From: an uncultured Pirellulaceae bacterium
GTDB taxonomy: Bacteria; Planctomycetota; Planctomycetia; Pirellulales; Pirellulaceae
Reading direction: 5' to 3'
NCBI GenBank assembly: GCA_937929805.1
Contig: CALFUT010000022.1
Location: 1 to 64,000 of the forward strand
DNA length: 64,000 bases
Position 1 is the stretch's first letter. Every line of letters starts with the position of its first letter. Under the pieces are notes generated by a model that had not been told where the DNA came from, made no database searches, and was given only the letters and a program-made list of their open reading frames with translations. Position numbers and translations under genes: made by a program. Below are positions 554 to 19,882 of the stretch, in pieces.

Positions 554-3500
554 ATGAGCTTTGATTTTCTCAACACGTCGATGCACTGGCCAAGCGCGAA
601 GGAAGTCTATTCTCCTTCGGGTGCGGGCTCGCGTATTCTCGTAAAACTCGCCAAAGAGAAAATCGAAAAAAATCTAGCTCGCCAGCTTGGCAAGACCGCA
701 AATGTCAAAGTTGGCTTGCTGACAAAGACGGCGGGTGCAGCCATGACCGCATCACCAATCGCTGTTGTTTGCGAATTCAACCACCCCATTACCAAACAAC
801 ATTTGGCGGAGGCCCATCGCCTTGCGTGGAATTTCTCACGAGCGCCACTACTGATTACGATCGAGCCAAATTTGATTCGGACTTGGTCATGCTGTGAACT
901 TCCCGCCAGCAATACGGAGGAAGTTGAACAGCTTGGTTTTCAGATTCGAGAAGCAACACTGGACTTCGGCACACCCGATTCCTTGTCGGATAGTGCAGCA
1001 CATGCATTGAACTGGGTGCGTTTGGCCAGCGGAGACTTTTACCGAGAGTTTCCTGAGCGATTCAGGCGTGCGGGAAGAGCTGACCAAGCCTTACTCGATG
1101 AATTAAAAGCTGTTCGCAAAGAACTTGAACGACAAGAACTGCCGAGAGATACAATTCATGATTTGATTGCTCGTGTCATTTTCATTCAGTTCTTGTTTGA
1201 CCGCAAAGACTCGGAAGGCCGTTCCGCACTGAACCCCTCCTTGTTGGAAAAACTCTACAACGAAGGCACGCTCAGAGGTGTCCACGTCAACTTGCAATCA
1301 ATTCTTGCGAACTTTAAGGAAGCGTATCGTTTCTTTCAATGGCTGAATGACAAATTCAATGGCGATTTGTTTCCGGGCAAAGGTGAAACCAAGACCGGAC
1401 GCGAAACTGAATGGCGAAATGAAAAAAATGCAGTTGAGGAACATCATCTCAAAACACTTGCGGATTTTGTGAGTGGGACGTTAAAGGTCAAAGATCGTCA
1501 ACGATTGTTTTGGCGTCAGTATTCTTTCGACGTTATCCCTCTGGAGTTTATTAGTAGTGTTTACGAGGAATTTGTAACTTCCAATTCAGCGCACTATACG
1601 CCCGGGTTTCTCGTTGACTTCATGCTTGACGGCGTGTTGCCTTGGGACGGCGATGAATGGGATCTAAAGATTCTCGACCCAGCTTGCGGGAGCGGGATTT
1701 TTCTTGTTAAGGCCTATCAGCGATTAATTCAACGTTGGAAAAATGCCAATGAAAATGAGCAGCCGTCGCCAAATGTTCTGCGTCGCATCCTTGAACGCAA
1801 TTTGTTTGGCGTAGACATTGACCCGCACGCTGTGAGAGTTGCATCGTTTAGCTTGTATCTGACGATGTGCGATGAGATTGACCCTAAGAGCTATTTGAGT
1901 GTTTGGAAATTTCCTCGTATGCGTGGGGAAAGACTGATCCATTCCGACTTTTTTGCTGAAGGGATTAAGGGCTTCGACACTGGTGAGGATGTCTCTTCAT
2001 ATGACTTGATCATTGGTAATGCGCCTTGGGGCAAAGATACGGTTACTGACGCTGCAGAGGCATGGGCAAATGACCCTAATCACAAATGGCCGATTGCAAA
2101 CAAAGCCATCGGAACGCTATTCCTTGCAAAATCTGGCGAGCTCGCGAAAAGCACGGGCCTTGTCTCTTTGATCCAGCCAGCGAGCTCATTACTGTTCAAC
2201 TCAATTGGCACGTCGGTTCGATTTCGACAAATGCTGTTTTCGAATTATTCGGTAAAAGAGATTGTGAACTTGTCGGCCCTCAGATTTCAACTTTTCGGTG
2301 TCGCTAGACGCGCGACGAAATCAACTTCTCCACCATGTGTTGTTACATTCTCTCCGACAGTTGGCGAATCAGAACCAATTCTTTATATCAGTCCGAAAAA
2401 GTCCATACTCAATGACAAATCTGAAACAGGAGAGAACGACTATTGGATCATCGTTGAACCTTTCGATATATCGTTGATTTCACACGCGGATTGCATAGAC
2501 GCTTCAACGTGGACAGCCTTTTCGTGGGGAGGGAGGAGAGACTATTTCTTGATTCAAAAACTTCAGAAATTCACATCTCTGAAGGAGCTTGAATCTGATG
2601 GAACAATTTTGTCGAGGCGAGGAGTTAGTCGCGGGAAAAACAAGCAGAAACGGCAGGAGGGAATTCTGGATATGCCAATGGTCTCCAGCGACGACGATAT
2701 TGACGAGAACTTTAAGTTCCTCAATGCAGCATCGCTATCAAGAAATAGCGATCCGTTCACACACGAGGCTGATTCAGTAGACATGTCCGCTTTTTCATTA
2801 CCTCAACTTATCGTTAAGCAGAGCTGGCAGAAGCGCACTTCAAGATTCAAATGTTTGATCGTAAATTCGACGCCTAGTTTGGGCCCGGTTTTTTGCACGC
2901 GCAGCTATTTTAGCATTCATGTTGCTAAAGAATCAGATTCACTTGTCGAACAAATTTGGACAAGTATCAACAGTTCAATTGCTGTGTATTTCCTTCTCTT
3001 GACCAGCGGAAGGTTGGCATCGTGGATCCCAGAACCAAATAAAAAAGACTTTCTGAACATTCCGATCGCGATCGGAGGGAAGAAGTCATCCGTGGAATCA
3101 GTTGCAGATATTGATCGTAAGGCAACATTAGATTTTGATTTGAAGGACTCGGAATCAGTTTTGGTGAGTGACCTCTTCAAATTCACGATGCCGGACTTCC
3201 AAGGCAATGATTCCTCTCCTGGTCGGCAGTTTACGCAGCGAAATGATACTTCAAAACGAGTTTCAACACGCGAGCCAGAGGTTTCGCAATACTGCAAATT
3301 CTTCTTAAGGGTTCTTAAATCGGTGTCGGGTGACGAACAAAGTATTCGCGCTACCATTTTCCAAGACTCATCAAAGCAAAGGCTTCCCGTTCGCTTGGTT
3401 GCCTTCTATTTGGATATGGATCGAAGTGAGGAAATCACCGTAGAGACGATTGACTCTGACGAATTGTGCTTTCTTTTGGATACATTGAACGAGACTTACC

Positions 3501-3730
3501 TCAAAATCCATGGTGTTGACCGAGGAGGCATTTTCTTCCAGCGTGTTGCTCGAATTTATCTTGAGCAAGAGATCAACGGAGTCCTCACACCAGTCGTTTA
3601 TATTGTAAAGCCTGATCGGGTTCGCTATTGGACACGATCCGCTGGCTTGCGAGATGCTGACGAAGTTGCTGCGGACGCTCAGATATCGCAATCTGAAAAT
3701 CCTCCGTCCTACGATGAAGCGGAGGCGTAA
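554..3730 (+). CDS. Large N-6 adenine DNA methyltransferase, restriction-modification/defence type
   Basis: This 1058-residue protein carries the gamma-type N6-adenine methylase signature. SAM-binding motif I (DPACGSGIFL) is near residue 375, preceded by the HYTPGFLVDFML segment found in HsdM-like and type IIG enzymes. The catalytic motif IV is near residue 488 and reads NAPW instead of the usual NPPY/NPPW. A long region before the methylase core (about 1-330) and a C-terminal half of about 500 residues are probably for scaffolding and target recognition, as in type IIG and PglX-like enzymes. The stop overlaps the next gene's start (TAATG), so the two are translationally coupled. Both genes look more AT-rich than the flanking housekeeping genes, which suggests transfer. 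I cannot tell from sequence alone whether it modifies host DNA as part of R-M or belongs to a larger defence system extending left of the window. Confidence 0.85.
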   Translation: MSFDFLNTSMHWPSAKEVYSPSGAGSRILVKLAKEKIEKNLARQLGKTANVKVGLLTKTAGAAMTASPIAVVCEFNHPITKQHLAEAHRLAWNFSRAPLLITIEPNLIRTWSCCELPASNTEEVEQLGFQIREATLDFGTPDSLSDSAAHALNWVRLASGDFYREFPERFRRAGRADQALLDELKAVRKELERQELPRDTIHDLIARVIFIQFLFDRKDSEGRSALNPSLLEKLYNEGTLRGVHVNLQSILANFKEAYRFFQWLNDKFNGDLFPGKGETKTGRETEWRNEKNAVEEHHLKTLADFVSGTLKVKDRQRLFWRQYSFDVIPLEFISSVYEEFVTSNSAHYTPGFLVDFMLDGVLPWDGDEWDLKILDPACGSGIFLVKAYQRLIQRWKNANENEQPSPNVLRRILERNLFGVDIDPHAVRVASFSLYLTMCDEIDPKSYLSVWKFPRMRGERLIHSDFFAEGIKGFDTGEDVSSYDLIIGNAPWGKDTVTDAAEAWANDPNHKWPIANKAIGTLFLAKSGELAKSTGLVSLIQPASSLLFNSIGTSVRFRQMLFSNYSVKEIVNLSALRFQLFGVARRATKSTSPPCVVTFSPTVGESEPILYISPKKSILNDKSETGENDYWIIVEPFDISLISHADCIDASTWTAFSWGGRRDYFLIQKLQKFTSLKELESDGTILSRRGVSRGKNKQKRQEGILDMPMVSSDDDIDENFKFLNAASLSRNSDPFTHEADSVDMSAFSLPQLIVKQSWQKRTSRFKCLIVNSTPSLGPVFCTRSYFSIHVAKESDSLVEQIWTSINSSIAVYFLLLTSGRLASWIPEPNKKDFLNIPIAIGGKKSSVESVADIDRKATLDFDLKDSESVLVSDLFKFTMPDFQGNDSSPGRQFTQRNDTSKRVSTREPEVSQYCKFFLRVLKSVSGDEQSIRATIFQDSSKQRLPVRLVAFYLDMDRSEEITVETIDSDELCFLLDTLNETYLKIHGVDRGGIFFQRVARIYLEQEINGVLTPVVYIVKPDRVRYWTRSAGLRDADEVAADAQISQSENPPSYDEAEA

Positions 3731-4386
3731 TGCGGCGAACTTATCAGCAAAGACGTTGGCCAAATACACCTTTGTTTCAGTCTGTCGCAAAAAAGTGGTG
3801 CAAAAACCAGTCCTCGCAGCTGCTGGGAATGGTGTGGCACGCGATCGACGCAATGTGCGAAACTGATCTTGAAAAAGTTCCGATGAGTGATTCAGACGAA
3901 GCAAAGGAAGAGTCGCTTAACCTTATGCTTTCAGTGCGAATTGACAAACTTAAGTCAGGCGACGAACCATTTGCTGTGGTTCATCAACCTCCCGAACAAA
4001 ATAAACGAAAGACAAAAAACGCCCGCTCACCAGCACCTGACATCGGTTTTGTTTGGCATGAAAACCCGAACTGCGTTTGGCCAATTGAAGGCAAGATACT
4101 GAAGAGTGCAGAGGATCTTGGGGAGTACGAAAAAGAGATAACAGACAACTTTCTATCAGGTCGATACGCCACTTTCAGCACTGAAGGTGCAATGCTGGGG
4201 TACTTACTTTCAGGTGACTCAGAACAAACACTTAAAAATGTCGCGAAGAAGATTCGAAAGCGTCTAAGGACGCATCCAGAATTCGAAAACAGAAACCACA
4301 AGATTTCCAAACACATTCGCTCGGGCGTTGACGACCGAAAAAAGGAGACGTTCTTTTGCCACCACATGGCAGTTGCTGTTTATTGA
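3730..4386 (+). CDS. Small PD-(D/E)XK-like endonuclease candidate coupled to the methylase
   Basis: A 218-residue protein whose ATG shares its first base with the stop of the methylase gene. It has a plausible PD-(D/E)XK active site: Asp104 (in PAPDIGF), then a short strand, then Glu120 and Lys122 (in WPIEGKIL). That matches the D-x(n)-E-x-K arrangement of restriction-type nucleases. The C-terminus contains a CHH motif (near 211-213) of unknown role. The pairing suggests it is the cleavage subunit of a two-gene restriction system. This is inference from motif and operon; I do not recognise the named family. A non-catalytic partner or specificity factor remains possible. Confidence 0.6.
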   Translation: MRRTYQQRRWPNTPLFQSVAKKWCKNQSSQLLGMVWHAIDAMCETDLEKVPMSDSDEAKEESLNLMLSVRIDKLKSGDEPFAVVHQPPEQNKRKTKNARSPAPDIGFVWHENPNCVWPIEGKILKSAEDLGEYEKEITDNFLSGRYATFSTEGAMLGYLLSGDSEQTLKNVAKKIRKRLRTHPEFENRNHKISKHIRSGVDDRKKETFFCHHMAVAVY

Positions 4387-4773: not shown

Positions 4774-5916
4774 TCATTTCTCGATTTCTTCCAGTCGATC
4801 CAGCAGTGCTTTTTGGTAGGCGACCAAACCCTCTTGGTCTACCGGGAAGCTCAACCCAGACAACGCGCCACGGTCTTCCGAGATCGCGGTGGAGATTCGG
4901 CCCATCAAGGCACGTTGCCTCGGACTTAGCAGCTTGGCCGCTTTTGATTGGCCGCCGCGAAACCGAGATGAAGCCAACACATTTAGCTTAACCGCCTGAA
5001 GCTCGTTCAGTGGTAAGTAAGCCAGCGCGGTGTTTCTCAGATGATACTTTTGTTCCGACTTGCGGACGCGACGTGTTTCGAGCGATGGCTTCCATTCGAC
5101 AATGCTCGAAGCTCCCGCCCGATCCGCAATTTGATATTGCTCTTCATCGAAGGTGTAGACGACTGACGCACAACGCATGCGACGGGCACTGGTTAACAAT
5201 CGACTGTAGTCAATGACCTCCGGGTCGTAAGTGACATGCACAACCTCGTGATGACCTGCCCAAGCAGATCGGGTTGAGTAAACACCTTCCAAGGAGCCCA
5301 ACTGGGCTTCACCCGTCCAGTATCACGACATCGCAAAAGTTGCACGACGAAATTTGCTTTGCCAACTGAGCGACACGGTTTCAAGGAACTTGGGAACTTT
5401 CTGATTGGCGGCCTTCAGACTGGCAATCATGCGAGCTGCCAAGCCCGAGATGCTCCACACCCCGGCTTTCCTTCGAATCAGATCCTTTCCGTTGTGGTCC
5501 AAAAATCTAACGATCGGGTTATTCCAAGACGGTTCGCCAAACGCTTTCAGGATCGCGGCATCTTCTGCCTTATTGTTGTAGACGACGACAGGAATGAAAC
5601 TGTCTTCGATTGCTTCAACCATCAATGGCTGTGACAACGGACCGTTGCCAAAGTTCTTGCACGTTCCTCAGCCGGGCACTTCTTGAAAAAGCAACAGGAT
5701 GGGCTTACCCGTTTTGGCCGATTTTGCTTTGGCCGCATCCAAATCACGTCCCCACGCGACGTTTCCCAATTCTTCGGCTTGATTGCGAATTCGGGGCCGC
5801 CGCTGCGATTGGCCGTCCGATTCATCAAACGCTGCAAACCGATCACCAACCTGATACTTGGCCATCCACGATGCGAGAAGTAGCGACGCTACCGCGAAGC
5901 AAAGAGACAATTTCAT
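4774..5916 (-). CDS. Thioredoxin-MsrA fusion selenoprotein with two in-frame UGA (Sec) codons
   Basis: Read through two TGA codons (5668-5670 and 5323-5325), this is a single 380-residue frame with no frameshift. Residues 1-20 form a signal peptide or anchor. Residues about 50-180 are a thioredoxin-like domain: ILLLFQEVPG is followed by UGA at residue 83, then GTC, giving a U-x-x-C redox motif, and a cis-Pro-like NNPIVRFLD strand follows. The second UGA, residue 198, sits in FAMS-U-YWTGE. It matches the MsrA catalytic signature C-F-W-x-x-E with the Cys replaced by Sec. GVYSTRSAWAGHHEVVHVTYDP then matches the MsrA continuation (GV..T..GYAGG......YDP). The final 100 residues are diverged. It is probably an exported methionine sulfoxide reductase with its own reductant domain. 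A twice-mutated pseudogene is the alternative, but both stops are UGA and both fall exactly on redox cysteines. Confidence 0.85.
5295..5308 (-). promoter_or_regulatory. SECIS-like hairpin after the second UGA
   Basis: On the coding strand, AGCCC pairs perfectly with GGGCT around an AGTT loop. The loop begins 19 nt after the UGA at 5323-5325 and has G as its second base, matching the bacterial SECIS rule of a G within the first two loop positions. The stem is short, and an A-C mismatch separates it from a further G-C pair. Folding was done by eye. Confidence 0.55.
5633..5649 (-). promoter_or_regulatory. SECIS-like hairpin after the first UGA
   Basis: On the coding (minus) strand, GGCAACG pairs with CGTTGTC across a GTC loop: seven pairs including one G-U. 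The loop begins 25 nt after the UGA, inside the 16-37 nt range known for bacterial SECIS elements. It starts with G, as the bacterial consensus requires. Folding was done by eye. Confidence 0.6.
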
Positions 5917-6474
5917 TGAGCCATTCCTAAGATCTGATCGTTTTTACACGGCTATGAGTTTTTAGAAAGCAAGGTTCGTAGAAAAGCCTTTAGGCTTTCG
6001 GCTGTCGTTTTCAAGCAACTCTAGCCGCTACTACGAACGGCCCGAGCGCGCAAATGAAACGCCCGTCACAAAAATTCACAGCCACTACTGGCGTCGAACG
6101 ATTACTGGACGCACTCAGCAAGCCAGTTCTTTCGCCCAAACCACGCTCAGTTATATAGCTCACAATCGCTAGCATTGACGAGCGAACTGCAGGGTCCGCC
6201 CACGTTGAGCCGTGCCACGCCAAGTCTTCATTTCGGCTATCGTGCGGCAAATCCCAATATTTTTGCGGGCTTTAAAGTCATCAAGGGCCAAATGATGTCT
6301 GCAAACCCTCAGTCGGCATGAAATCGCAATCTTGGAGGATAGGGAGGCAGCCGCGATTCGCATTGACTCAATAATTGATTCGGAACAGATTATCTGGCTG
6401 CAAGGATCGCAACATTGACTCAATCTATTCGCTCGCGAACGATCGCGAGGAAACCTCGACACGAAGGTGCAAGG
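5917..6474. other. Divergent intergenic region
   Basis: About 560 bases between two genes that point away from each other, so it should contain both promoters. A perfect inverted repeat (AAAGCCT-TT-AGGCTTT) lies near 5983-5998. No conserved riboswitch or gene was recognised. The long minus-strand frame at 6169-6777 has no domain and overlaps the start of the next gene antisense. Confidence 0.35.
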
Positions 6475-8865
6475 ATGCTCGCGTTGAATCGAAATCATCA
6501 AAACTCGTTCGCCAAAAATACTCTCAATCTCCGATCCACCATGGTTCGAAGCGTGGCGTTGGTTGCAATCTGCGGCTTGGTCTCCGTCCCGTCGATGTCG
6601 TCGGCTCAAAGCTACGATACAAATTATCAGGACTCGCCAGCTGCTAAGCTGCCGCCGCGAGCACCATCGATTCTGATCCGCGATGACGCTCCAACCCGTC
6701 CAGCAGCGGCCCAACCGCTCCAACCGAGAGTTAGCAGCCAACCGTTCACTCGGCAGCACGCACAACCTTTGGCGCAAAGATCAACGCAATCGTCGGCTCA
6801 GCCGTCCAGTTCTTCATTGCAACCGCAAGTTTCCTCGTCCGGCTTTCAGATTCCGAGCAGCCCCACACGCGAGGACTTTACCAACCCCAACACCAACAGC
6901 GTGATTCGCGCCACGGCATCGGACGAATCATCAGCCTTTGGCACGTTCGCTGATCAATCCGCGGAGCCAACCGCTGAACCGAAACCGCCCGCAGCACCCG
7001 TTCGATCTTTCGGATCAACTTCGGTTCCTGTCCGCGTTGCTCAACCCGCTGGCTTCATGCAGCCGCAGCAACCGGATCAAGAGATCACACCGATCGTTCA
7101 CAATGACCTTCGATCCAACAACGCAAACGAATCATCAGGCTCGCGAGTTGGAACAACGGATGAGTTTGGCCAACACACAGAACCGAAAACAGATTCCATG
7201 ACGGCGTCTTCACGTTTCGTTGACACCAACCCGGCACCTCCTGCGGCCATGCCAAGCACTTCGCCGCAGCGTTTCAATCCGCAGATCTTTTCGCCGGCTC
7301 AGGTTCAGACTCCTCAGCCACAAGAAGAAAAATCGGAGCCCCTACCGTTCACTGCCGAACCCGCTCGAACGATCGAGCAACCGGCGTTCGACAACCAAGT
7401 CACCCCCACCAGCTTTGCACAAGCGATCTCCAAAGAAAATTCTGGCACAGCCGATCTAGCGCAAACGATCGTGGACCGCTACTCGATGGACAACGCGTCC
7501 GAACCGTTGCCGGGCGAACCGATGACGCTTAAAGAATTGCTTCAGCAACCGCTCCCGCAACAGTATCAACCGGCGATGGTCAGCCAGTATTGGGAGACAT
7601 GGTTCGACTGGGCCAGCTTGCAAAACGCGATCGCCTACCAAGAATGGCTGGACTCGGTTCCCAACGCTTCGGCTCAAGGCGAGCAGGGTCTGCTGGACAC
7701 CGCGCGATCCGCCGCAGAGAACCAAGCCTTGGCCGCTAAGATTCAGCTGGGAAAATCGCAATCGAAGCTGGTTCGATTCATGCCGACCCGCCGTTCGAAT
7801 CTTGCACCGTTGCCCAGCGATTCACCATTGGTCGAGCGATACGAGACTCATTACGAAATCTATAAAGCCCGCAACCTGTTGCCCGCCAAGTTGATCGGCA
7901 TCGATCAAATGCTGCCTCAGACTTTGACATTGATCAACCACCGAGCAGAAACGGTTCAAAAGTCGCAAGCGGCGATCAAGCAAAACTTGGAAGGCTACTC
8001 AAGGAAGCGGGTTCCTTTGGCGTCTGTTTTGGAAGCGGCTCGAGTCTGGCGGGCGGCCGAGCAAGACCTGTTGGCTTCGGTGACCAGCTACAATCGAGCC
8101 ATTGCGGACTATGCTTTCAACATTAAGCGCCAACCAACGACGCCCGAACAGACGGTGGCGATGCTGATCGGCACTGGAAGTGCAAAATCCAAGCAGCAGC
8201 CCACGACATCACGCACCGCGTCCAACGCGGCGTCGCGAAACAATAATCGCGGCAACCGTCGTAGCCGGAACGATTCATCAACGGCCGCCACCGCCGCCTC
8301 GTTCGGTCAACCAACCAACCGGTCAAACGCAAACGCTTCGACGGACACACAAGAGTCGTCTACCAGCGACACGCTCGCGGCTAACGAAAAACTCGCACCG
8401 ACCGATCGCCCGGCATGGGGTGGCGGAAACAACAGTAGGACGCTTCCTTCAACCGCCGGAACAAGCAGCCGATCGCGGACAGCCTCCAGCCGCTCAACCG
8501 CCGACGCCCGACCATCGCTGGGCACTTCATCTCGAGATTTATTTGGTGGTCAGTCAGCAAGGTCCGGCTCGACCGCAGCCCCATCGGTGTCATCCACCGC
8601 ATTTGGTTCCCCGGCGACCGGATCCAACTCGGCGACTTCGCCCTCAACGAGTCGACCATCAAGCAGGAATTTTGGTGGACGACCAAGTTTCGGTGATCGC
8701 TCCAGCATCGGGACCAACGGATTTGCAGGCTCCAACAGCGCCGCATCTTCTTCGCGAAGTTCAGCAGCCGCGACAACTTCGGCTGCACCCGCGACGCCGA
8801 CTCGCAAACCGTTTCCGCTGCCCAAACGCCCCTCGACATCAAGCAACAACTTCGGCGGATTTTAG
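6475..8865 (+). CDS. Large secreted Ser/Thr/Pro/Gln-rich protein of unknown function
   Basis: The first ATG in a strong context is at 6475 (AAGG just before it), giving 796 residues; a TTG 60 bases upstream is in frame but less likely. A long positively charged N-region precedes a hydrophobic segment (MVRSVALVAICGLVSVPSM, ending SSAQS), which fits the extended signal peptides seen in planctomycetes. Residues about 40-340 are Pro/Ser/Thr/Gln-rich and probably disordered. A middle block of about 200 residues (Trp-rich start, then long helices ending SYNRAIADYAFNIK) is the only part with folded character and loosely recalls the helical hairpins of TolC-type proteins. The C-terminal 230 residues are again Ser/Thr/Arg low complexity. 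No family recognised. Confidence 0.75.
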   Translation: MLALNRNHQNSFAKNTLNLRSTMVRSVALVAICGLVSVPSMSSAQSYDTNYQDSPAAKLPPRAPSILIRDDAPTRPAAAQPLQPRVSSQPFTRQHAQPLAQRSTQSSAQPSSSSLQPQVSSSGFQIPSSPTREDFTNPNTNSVIRATASDESSAFGTFADQSAEPTAEPKPPAAPVRSFGSTSVPVRVAQPAGFMQPQQPDQEITPIVHNDLRSNNANESSGSRVGTTDEFGQHTEPKTDSMTASSRFVDTNPAPPAAMPSTSPQRFNPQIFSPAQVQTPQPQEEKSEPLPFTAEPARTIEQPAFDNQVTPTSFAQAISKENSGTADLAQTIVDRYSMDNASEPLPGEPMTLKELLQQPLPQQYQPAMVSQYWETWFDWASLQNAIAYQEWLDSVPNASAQGEQGLLDTARSAAENQALAAKIQLGKSQSKLVRFMPTRRSNLAPLPSDSPLVERYETHYEIYKARNLLPAKLIGIDQMLPQTLTLINHRAETVQKSQAAIKQNLEGYSRKRVPLASVLEAARVWRAAEQDLLASVTSYNRAIADYAFNIKRQPTTPEQTVAMLIGTGSAKSKQQPTTSRTASNAASRNNNRGNRRSRNDSSTAATAASFGQPTNRSNANASTDTQESSTSDTLAANEKLAPTDRPAWGGGNNSRTLPSTAGTSSRSRTASSRSTADARPSLGTSSRDLFGGQSARSGSTAAPSVSSTAFGSPATGSNSATSPSTSRPSSRNFGGRPSFGDRSSIGTNGFAGSNSAASSSRSSAAATTSAAPATPTRKPFPLPKRPSTSSNNFGGF

Positions 8866-19110: not shown

Positions 19111-19252
19111 GTTGTTTCAACACACACGCTGGTGCTGGAAAATCGGCATCGGATAACCACCGCCACAACGTGCGCACGGCGATCCCTTAGCCCTTGATGG
19201 GTACATTCACCTCGAACGCGCTCGTCCCTCGCAGACCAACGTTCGACATCCA

Positions 19253-19477
19253 AAACTGGCAGGTATTCTGACTCTTGACTTATCGCTGCGGCCTTCTCAC
19301 CCGTCTTTGTTCACCTAGAACAACGGTCGGCAATGGCTTTTAGATTCGCAGCGATTTGGAATTCGATCGAAGCGTGTTCGACACGAATTCTATCAATTAC
19401 AGCGGCGGGGCCGTTCGGGGATTTCACCCAATTCCCTCTAACCGACCGCGAACAGGCGATCGATCACCAGCTTTGTG
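19253..19477 (-). ncRNA. Cobalamin (B12) riboswitch upstream of DUF1559 gene
   Basis: Read on the minus strand, this leader contains the conserved cobalamin-element blocks in the right order. They are GGTGATCGATCGCC with GGTTAGAGGGAATTGGGTG (about 19470-19425), then AATCCCCGAACGGCCCCGCC followed by GCTGTAA (about 19423-19395), AAGCCATTGCC (about 19340), GGTGAGAAGGCCGC (about 19300), and the B12 box GAGTCAGAATACCTGCCAG (about 19273-19255). The last differs from the consensus AGCCAGGAGACCTGCC at only a few positions. It ends about 140 bases before the DUF1559 start. Boundaries are by eye. Confidence 0.92.
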
Positions 19478-19882
19478 GAAGATCGGATCATAGTCGACGA
19501 TCAAACCCCAGTCAAAGAGTCATACTCCCTGCCATTAGGGCTGTGCCATCCACCGAATAGCCGATTCCCTTTTGCACTCGCTTTGACAACACCAAACAAA
19601 GCACCGCCACTTCGCAGGTCCGGTTGTTCCGTTTGTACCGATCTCAACAGCCTTTTTGCCAATCGGTCGAGACCCGAAAACTTCCGTTCTGCATAATTTT
19701 GGCCTCGCAACCATCCAAGCGAGCTAGATTTCGTGCACCCCTTAGCGTCATTGTTGCGGGAATTGATATCCCCGCAACATCTGGGAGTCCCCTTCGGTGA
19801 GCTGTTACCCCCCACCCTGAAACGGGTACACGGACTCACGCAAGATTAAAAACTTAAGCGATCATTTTGACTTAGTCATGTC
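19478..19882. other. Divergent intergenic region
   Basis: About 400 bases between the riboswitch and the HAMP-type gene. One clear hairpin is present at 19752-19779 (GTTGCGGG, 10-nt loop, CCCGCAAC) without a T run. Promoters for both directions should lie here. The minus-strand frame 19501-19839 shows no domain. Confidence 0.4.

Follow-up and report, generated by a model that had tools for sequence, protein, structure and literature searches.

Probable double-selenocysteine variant of the NF041383 family

The window, i.e. the whole 64-kb stretch of DNA analysed, contains a gene that very probably encodes a variant of a known selenoprotein family, in which a second selenocysteine (Sec), with a SECIS of its own, lies on an MsrA domain stripped of two loops. 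As shown in Table 1, two TGA codons, 83 and 198, are all that interrupts the frame, and its read-through translation contained no TAA, TAG or frameshift. Reading TGA as Sec (U) gave a protein of 380 residues, with U83 in EVPG-U-GTC and U198 in FAMS-U-YWTGE. If the recoding goes unrecognised, the gene splits into two or three false genes.

Table 1 Features of the double-Sec gene and its product.
Feature	Position	Strand	Basis or remark
Double-Sec gene	4774..5916	(-)	380 codons and TGA stop; ATG start 5916-5914; NF041383 match
N-terminal hydrophobic helix, residues 1-21, probable export signal or anchor	5854..5916	(-)	Model helix 2-21
Thioredoxin-like domain, residues 52-173, active site VPG-U83-G-T-C86	5398..5763	(-)	Pfam Thioredoxin_7; fold matches
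UGA codon 83, Sec of UxxC motif	5668..5670	(-)	Cys/Sec in 106/106 homologues
Cys86, partner of Sec83	5659..5661	(-)	98/98 non-redundant homologues; search pattern partly selected for Cys86
SECIS-like hairpin 1	5632..5650	(-)	8-bp stem TGGCAACG/CGTTGTCA, loop GUC, 25 nt past UGA 83
MsrA-like domain and C-terminal helical subdomain, residues 187-347	4876..5358	(-)	4u66 fold match; hhalign
UGA codon 198, Sec at MsrA nucleophile position, U-Y-W	5323..5325	(-)	Cys/Sec in 106/106 homologues; Trp200 in 98/98 non-redundant homologues
SECIS-like hairpin 2	5295..5308	(-)	5-bp stem AGCCC/GGGCT, loop AGUU, 19 nt past UGA 198
Glu224, equivalent of MsrA catalytic Glu (E. coli 94, CoMsrA Glu55)	5245..5247	(-)	97/98 non-redundant homologues; alignments
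Cys249, candidate resolving Cys	5170..5172	(-)	90/98 non-redundant homologues

The NCBIfam profile NF041383, 'VPGUxxT family thioredoxin-like (seleno)protein, type 2', matched the read-through protein with 357.2 bits (cut-off 275) over residues 49-337 and profile positions 1-286 of 287, and it also matched 52/52 sequences of the family alignment. Judged by this full-length match, the thioredoxin/MsrA fusion is an already named family. A review and inventory of May 2026 enters NF041383 under the name hypothetical protein OS_HP5, gives it one Sec in the motif VPGU, and counts families with two or three Sec residues as a small subset (PMC13188914). The second Sec appears to be absent from this inventory, although NCBI records may already hold two-Sec entries. 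The preliminary description had regarded a fusion with two Sec as unusual; the fusion itself proved to be known, and it is the second Sec that is missing from the published list. The window protein and NF041383 thus have in common the full-length match above cut-off, the two-domain architecture and Sec at VPGU, but the family as inventoried has one Sec, whereas the window protein and 23 of the 105 other readable homologues have a second one at the MsrA nucleophile. Few bacterial proteins carry two Sec in separate catalytic domains.

Probable selenocysteine at both UGA codons

The family was searched with an alignment in which both Sec positions were masked as X. This found 540 relatives in GTDB genomes, and the best 80 of the 540 were taken, which came from Planctomycetota, Verrucomicrobiota, Bacteroidota (Saprospiraceae and relatives), Myxococcota and Ignavibacteriota; no relatives were found in viral contigs. 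Four loci that the motif finder did not read (L068, L069, L089 and L101) were left out of the state counts. Among the 106 readable homologues, 65 had Cys at both residues 83 and 198 (CC), 24 had Sec at both (UU), 17 had Sec at 83 and Cys at 198 (UC), and none had the reverse (CU). All 106 aligned through both positions with Cys or Sec alone, although the search had left both positions free. Together with the profile score, this places the two TGAs on catalytic positions far beyond chance, as the preliminary description had argued. The natural series of CC, UC and UU within one fold makes the benefit of each selenium testable.

Bacterial SECIS elements have a loop of 3-9 nt with G in the first two loop positions, a stem of 4-16 bp, a distance of 16-37 nt from the UGA and an MFE <= -7.5 (PMC13188914 Fig. 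2). Both window hairpins conform to these rules, and the MFE of the 48-nt segment was -10.0 at site 1 and -17.4 at site 2. Across the family, we counted hairpins with a GU or GG loop and a score of at least 14, a threshold of our own choice. At site 1 they followed 78% of the Sec codons versus 0% of the Cys codons, and at site 2 79% versus 4%, the Cys-type sequences being mutually non-independent. Since the contrast is so large, both the threshold and the kinship of the Cys-type sequences are likely to matter little. Synonymous shuffles of the Sec sites, with the protein kept, gave a hairpin in 7%. At site 2, GU was found at nt 23-24 (counting the U of UGA as 0) in 18/19 Sec-type versus 7/77 Cys-type homologues, and of the Sec-type sequences, 10 close this loop with C-G and 8 with G-C, both pair partners being changed.

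The source genome (74 contigs totalling 4.2 Mb, 96% complete) carries tRNA-Sec on contig C46 (70 bits, gathering score 47), selB on C20, selA on C7 and selD on C28, all exceeding their cut-offs, so the four genes by which the Sec reading was to be checked are present; the 64-kb window has no tRNA genes. The Cys/Sec-only pattern, the SECIS-like hairpins and these genes argue together that both UGAs very probably encode Sec and that the second Sec is a variant that recurs in the family; this upholds the double Sec first proposed. The UGAs might instead be true stops, in a decaying gene or in a code reading UGA as another residue, and standard translation does yield three separate ORFs; such a reading is already contradicted by the same homologue pattern, SECIS signal and sel genes as well as by the normal use of TGA as a stop, and we hold it to be extremely improbable. 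A pseudogene or a sequencing error was ruled out by the 106 homologues and the SECIS evidence. A genetic code that uses UGA throughout as a sense codon was also ruled out: TGA terminates 10 of the 27 ORFs of at least 300 aa within the window, and as an ordinary stop it indicates no whole-genome code change.

Distribution and possible order of Sec acquisition

Of 392 sampled genomes of the phylum, 32 had NF041383 above its cut-off, and SelA was present in 29 of these 32 versus 213 of the 360 others (Fisher P = 2e-4). The presence of SelA did not set UU/UC genomes apart from CC genomes, because nearly all carriers in the phylum have SelA. The two Sec-type genomes without SelA (G173 and G164) are drafts, 77% and 84% complete.

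In a maximum-likelihood tree built without the two Sec columns, UU proteins were found in both deep halves, well-supported branches forced at least three changes of the UU state, and UC proteins were scattered across the tree. The absence of CU suggests that the thioredoxin site acquires Sec first and the MsrA site afterwards. A statistical test on the tree of whether Sec198 occurs only with Sec83 had no more than three independent pairs on well-supported branches and was under-powered, which leaves this order at the level of an observation. One UC member outside Planctomycetota, L104 (Verrucomicrobia bacterium MAG-85), is a tree neighbour of Cys-type Verrucomicrobiota, by transfer or by parallel Sec gain. 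Many Planctomycetota genomes also hold a separate locus that matches the MsrA part of the profile only and has one TGA inside (for example G100:C49:37835-38176 and G056:C1:3208924-3209139); these may be free-standing Sec-MsrA genes.

Thioredoxin-like domain and probable export

The AlphaFold2 model of the protein had a mean pLDDT of 92. In this model, residues 52-173 fold like the C-terminal domain of DsbD (DsbD-gamma), DsbH and thioredoxins, with Z of 12-16. The fold of the first domain is thus shared with the DsbD C-terminal domain and DsbH (Z 13-16 for folds of this type), from which the window protein differs by its VPGUxxC active site and the fused MsrA-like domain. By a crude pattern test, an apolar N-terminus similar to that of the window protein was found in 94/106 homologues, and a lipobox-like motif in 16. 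The protein is very probably an exported redox enzyme; export, already part of the preliminary description, is supported by these apolar N-termini.

MsrA-like domain with two missing loops

Among all solved structures, the best match for residues 187-337 was 4u66 (Z 16.3, 30% identity, rmsd 2.1 over 138 residues), which, like 4lwj, is a structure of the selenoprotein MsrA of Clostridium oremlandii (CoMsrA). Comparison with canonical MsrA by hhalign gave a probability of 98 and an E of 1.6e-13, and Pfam PMSR scored 30.3 against a cut-off of 23.7 bits; the equivalog TIGR00401 was missed, with 23.2 bits against a cut-off of 108.1. The nucleophile motif Cys/Sec-[FY]-W was kept in the family, with Cys/Sec and Trp in 98/98 non-redundant homologues and F or Y between them.

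The active site of CoMsrA consists of Cys16, Phe17, Trp18, Tyr47, Glu55, Gln89, Tyr90, His137 and Tyr140 (PMC4333827). Two loops of this site are absent in the whole family: the loop with MsrA Tyr82 in Neisseria/E. coli numbering (CoMsrA Tyr47), through a deletion of 13-17 residues ahead of Glu224, and the loop with Asp129/Tyr134 (CoMsrA Tyr90), where the stretch is shortened and not alignable. The MsrA scaffold is thus stripped of two substrate loops, yet its nucleophile and Glu are under strong constraint. With both loops missing, sulfoxide binding is not assured.

The window protein resembles CoMsrA in its fold including the C-terminal helical domain, in the Sec/Cys-F/Y-W nucleophile and in the catalytic Glu (PMC4333827); it differs from CoMsrA by the fusion to a Sec thioredoxin domain, the loss of the Tyr47 and Gln89/Tyr90 loops and the presence of the candidate resolving Cys249. 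This Cys was missing in L031, L040, L042, L049, L088, L109, L120 and L123, of which L040, L042 and L049 share one UU group; in these three, resolution would need the thioredoxin domain or another thiol. The second domain is MsrA by descent and fold, but it does not keep every catalytic feature. The Sec-MsrA-like assignment made at the outset therefore holds for the fold, the nucleophile and the Glu, but the domain is not a canonical MsrA, having lost two active-site loops and missed TIGR00401. At the level of sequence, the evidence shows Sec at both sites, the fold and the kept nucleophile and Glu; export is an inference.

Proposed reaction and alternative functions

As the best overall explanation, we moderately favour a double-Sec exported reductase of Msr type that carries its own Sec thioredoxin domain. 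The substrate would probably be methionine sulfoxide or a close relative, judged by analogy with known enzymes. In CoMsrA, Sec is the nucleophile and Glu the proton donor (PMC4479559). In PilB, DsbD reduces an N-terminal thioredoxin domain, which in turn recycles MsrA (PMC6210582). On the analogy with these two proteins, we infer the substrate and the electron path of the double-Sec protein as follows. The SelA, SelB, SelD and tRNA-Sec of the genome would decode both UGAs, with one SECIS hairpin for each, giving an exported two-domain NF041383 enzyme. Sec198 would attack the oxidised substrate, most likely methionine-S-sulfoxide or a related sulfoxide, with Glu224 as the acid or proton donor, and either Cys249 or the fused thioredoxin domain itself (Sec83/Cys86) would resolve the selenenic acid formed on Sec198. 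The Sec83/Cys86 pair would hand on the electrons and could be re-reduced from the membrane, e.g. by the DsbD-like protein (DsbD_TM) that the source genome encodes. The logic of the preliminary description, an envelope methionine sulfoxide reductase carrying its own Sec partner domain, would agree with this scheme.

PilB of Neisseria (Trx-MsrA-MsrB) is similar in having an exported thioredoxin domain N-terminal to an MsrA-fold domain and provides a precedent for DsbD recycling (PMC6210582). It has canonical MsrA and MsrB domains, whereas the window protein has no MsrB, a reduced MsrA, Sec, and a thioredoxin domain like that of DsbD-gamma/DsbH. No SelR/MsrB match was found in the window protein, whose chain ends after the helical domain.

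The Msr-type reading is favoured by CoMsrA as the best fold match, the conserved Glu224, the msr neighbours at six loci, the PilB precedent and the DsbD_TM protein. Against it stand the two missing loops, the low TIGR00401 score, the scarcity of msr neighbours (6/106) and a further MsrA of the source genome, a canonical Cys form whose N-terminus is lipoprotein-like. The loss of the loops might reflect a switch to a substrate other than methionine sulfoxide, in which case the protein would be a double selenoprotein whose MsrA-fold domain acts on peroxides, small sulfoxides or protein selenenic/sulfenic acids. Such a change of substrate, which would fit the family-wide absence of the Tyr82, Asp129 and Tyr134 positions and the complete canonical MsrA kept by the genome, seems possible though not probable, as the Cys/Sec-[FY]-W motif and the catalytic Glu are nearly invariant and msrA/msrB neighbours occur across several phyla.

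These neighbours were found near 6 of the 106 loci, being adjacent and on the same strand in five, and amount to about four independent cases. Three of the loci, L095, L097 and L102, are related Saprospiraceae loci with an MsrA gene immediately upstream in the same orientation. Immediately downstream there is an MsrB gene in L100 and an MsrB-MsrA fusion in L112, and L030 has an MsrB in divergent orientation. In the 0.58 Mb of flanking sequence, chance would give 0.3 cases, by a rough estimate that assumes two or three msr genes per ~5 Mb genome. The adjacent genes upstream in the three Saprospiraceae loci and downstream in two others would also suit a protein that mainly serves as a dedicated electron carrier for a neighbouring conventional MsrA/MsrB, its MsrA-fold domain being a module for docking or relay. 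The gene stands without an msr neighbour at most loci, among them that of the window, and a nucleophile in every homologue together with the catalytic Glu suggests chemistry of its own, which makes a mere carrier improbable.

Within the favoured Msr-type reading, the loss of the two MsrA loops could leave room for the Sec-thioredoxin domain to dock on Sec198, and a direct relay from Sec83 to Sec198 through a selenosulfide or diselenide intermediate is a speculative variant to which we give limited credence. If true, the protein would be an exported selenoenzyme that recycles itself and that gained Sec stepwise, at the thioredoxin site first and at the catalytic site next.

Genomic neighbourhood

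No operon partner of the double-Sec gene was found in the window, where its neighbours are an Eco57I/MmeI-type methylase gene, a gene for an 816-aa protein and a Sua5 gene. The methylase gene encodes 1058 aa and has a one-base overlap with a 218-aa ORF without Pfam match; this locus (554-4386, plus strand) is possibly a restriction-modification remnant or a defence locus. The 816-aa protein (6415-8865, plus strand) is rich in Ser, Ala and Pro, has no Pfam match and is of planctomycete type. A cobalamin riboswitch (RF00174, 68 bits) was found at 19241-19486 on the minus strand.
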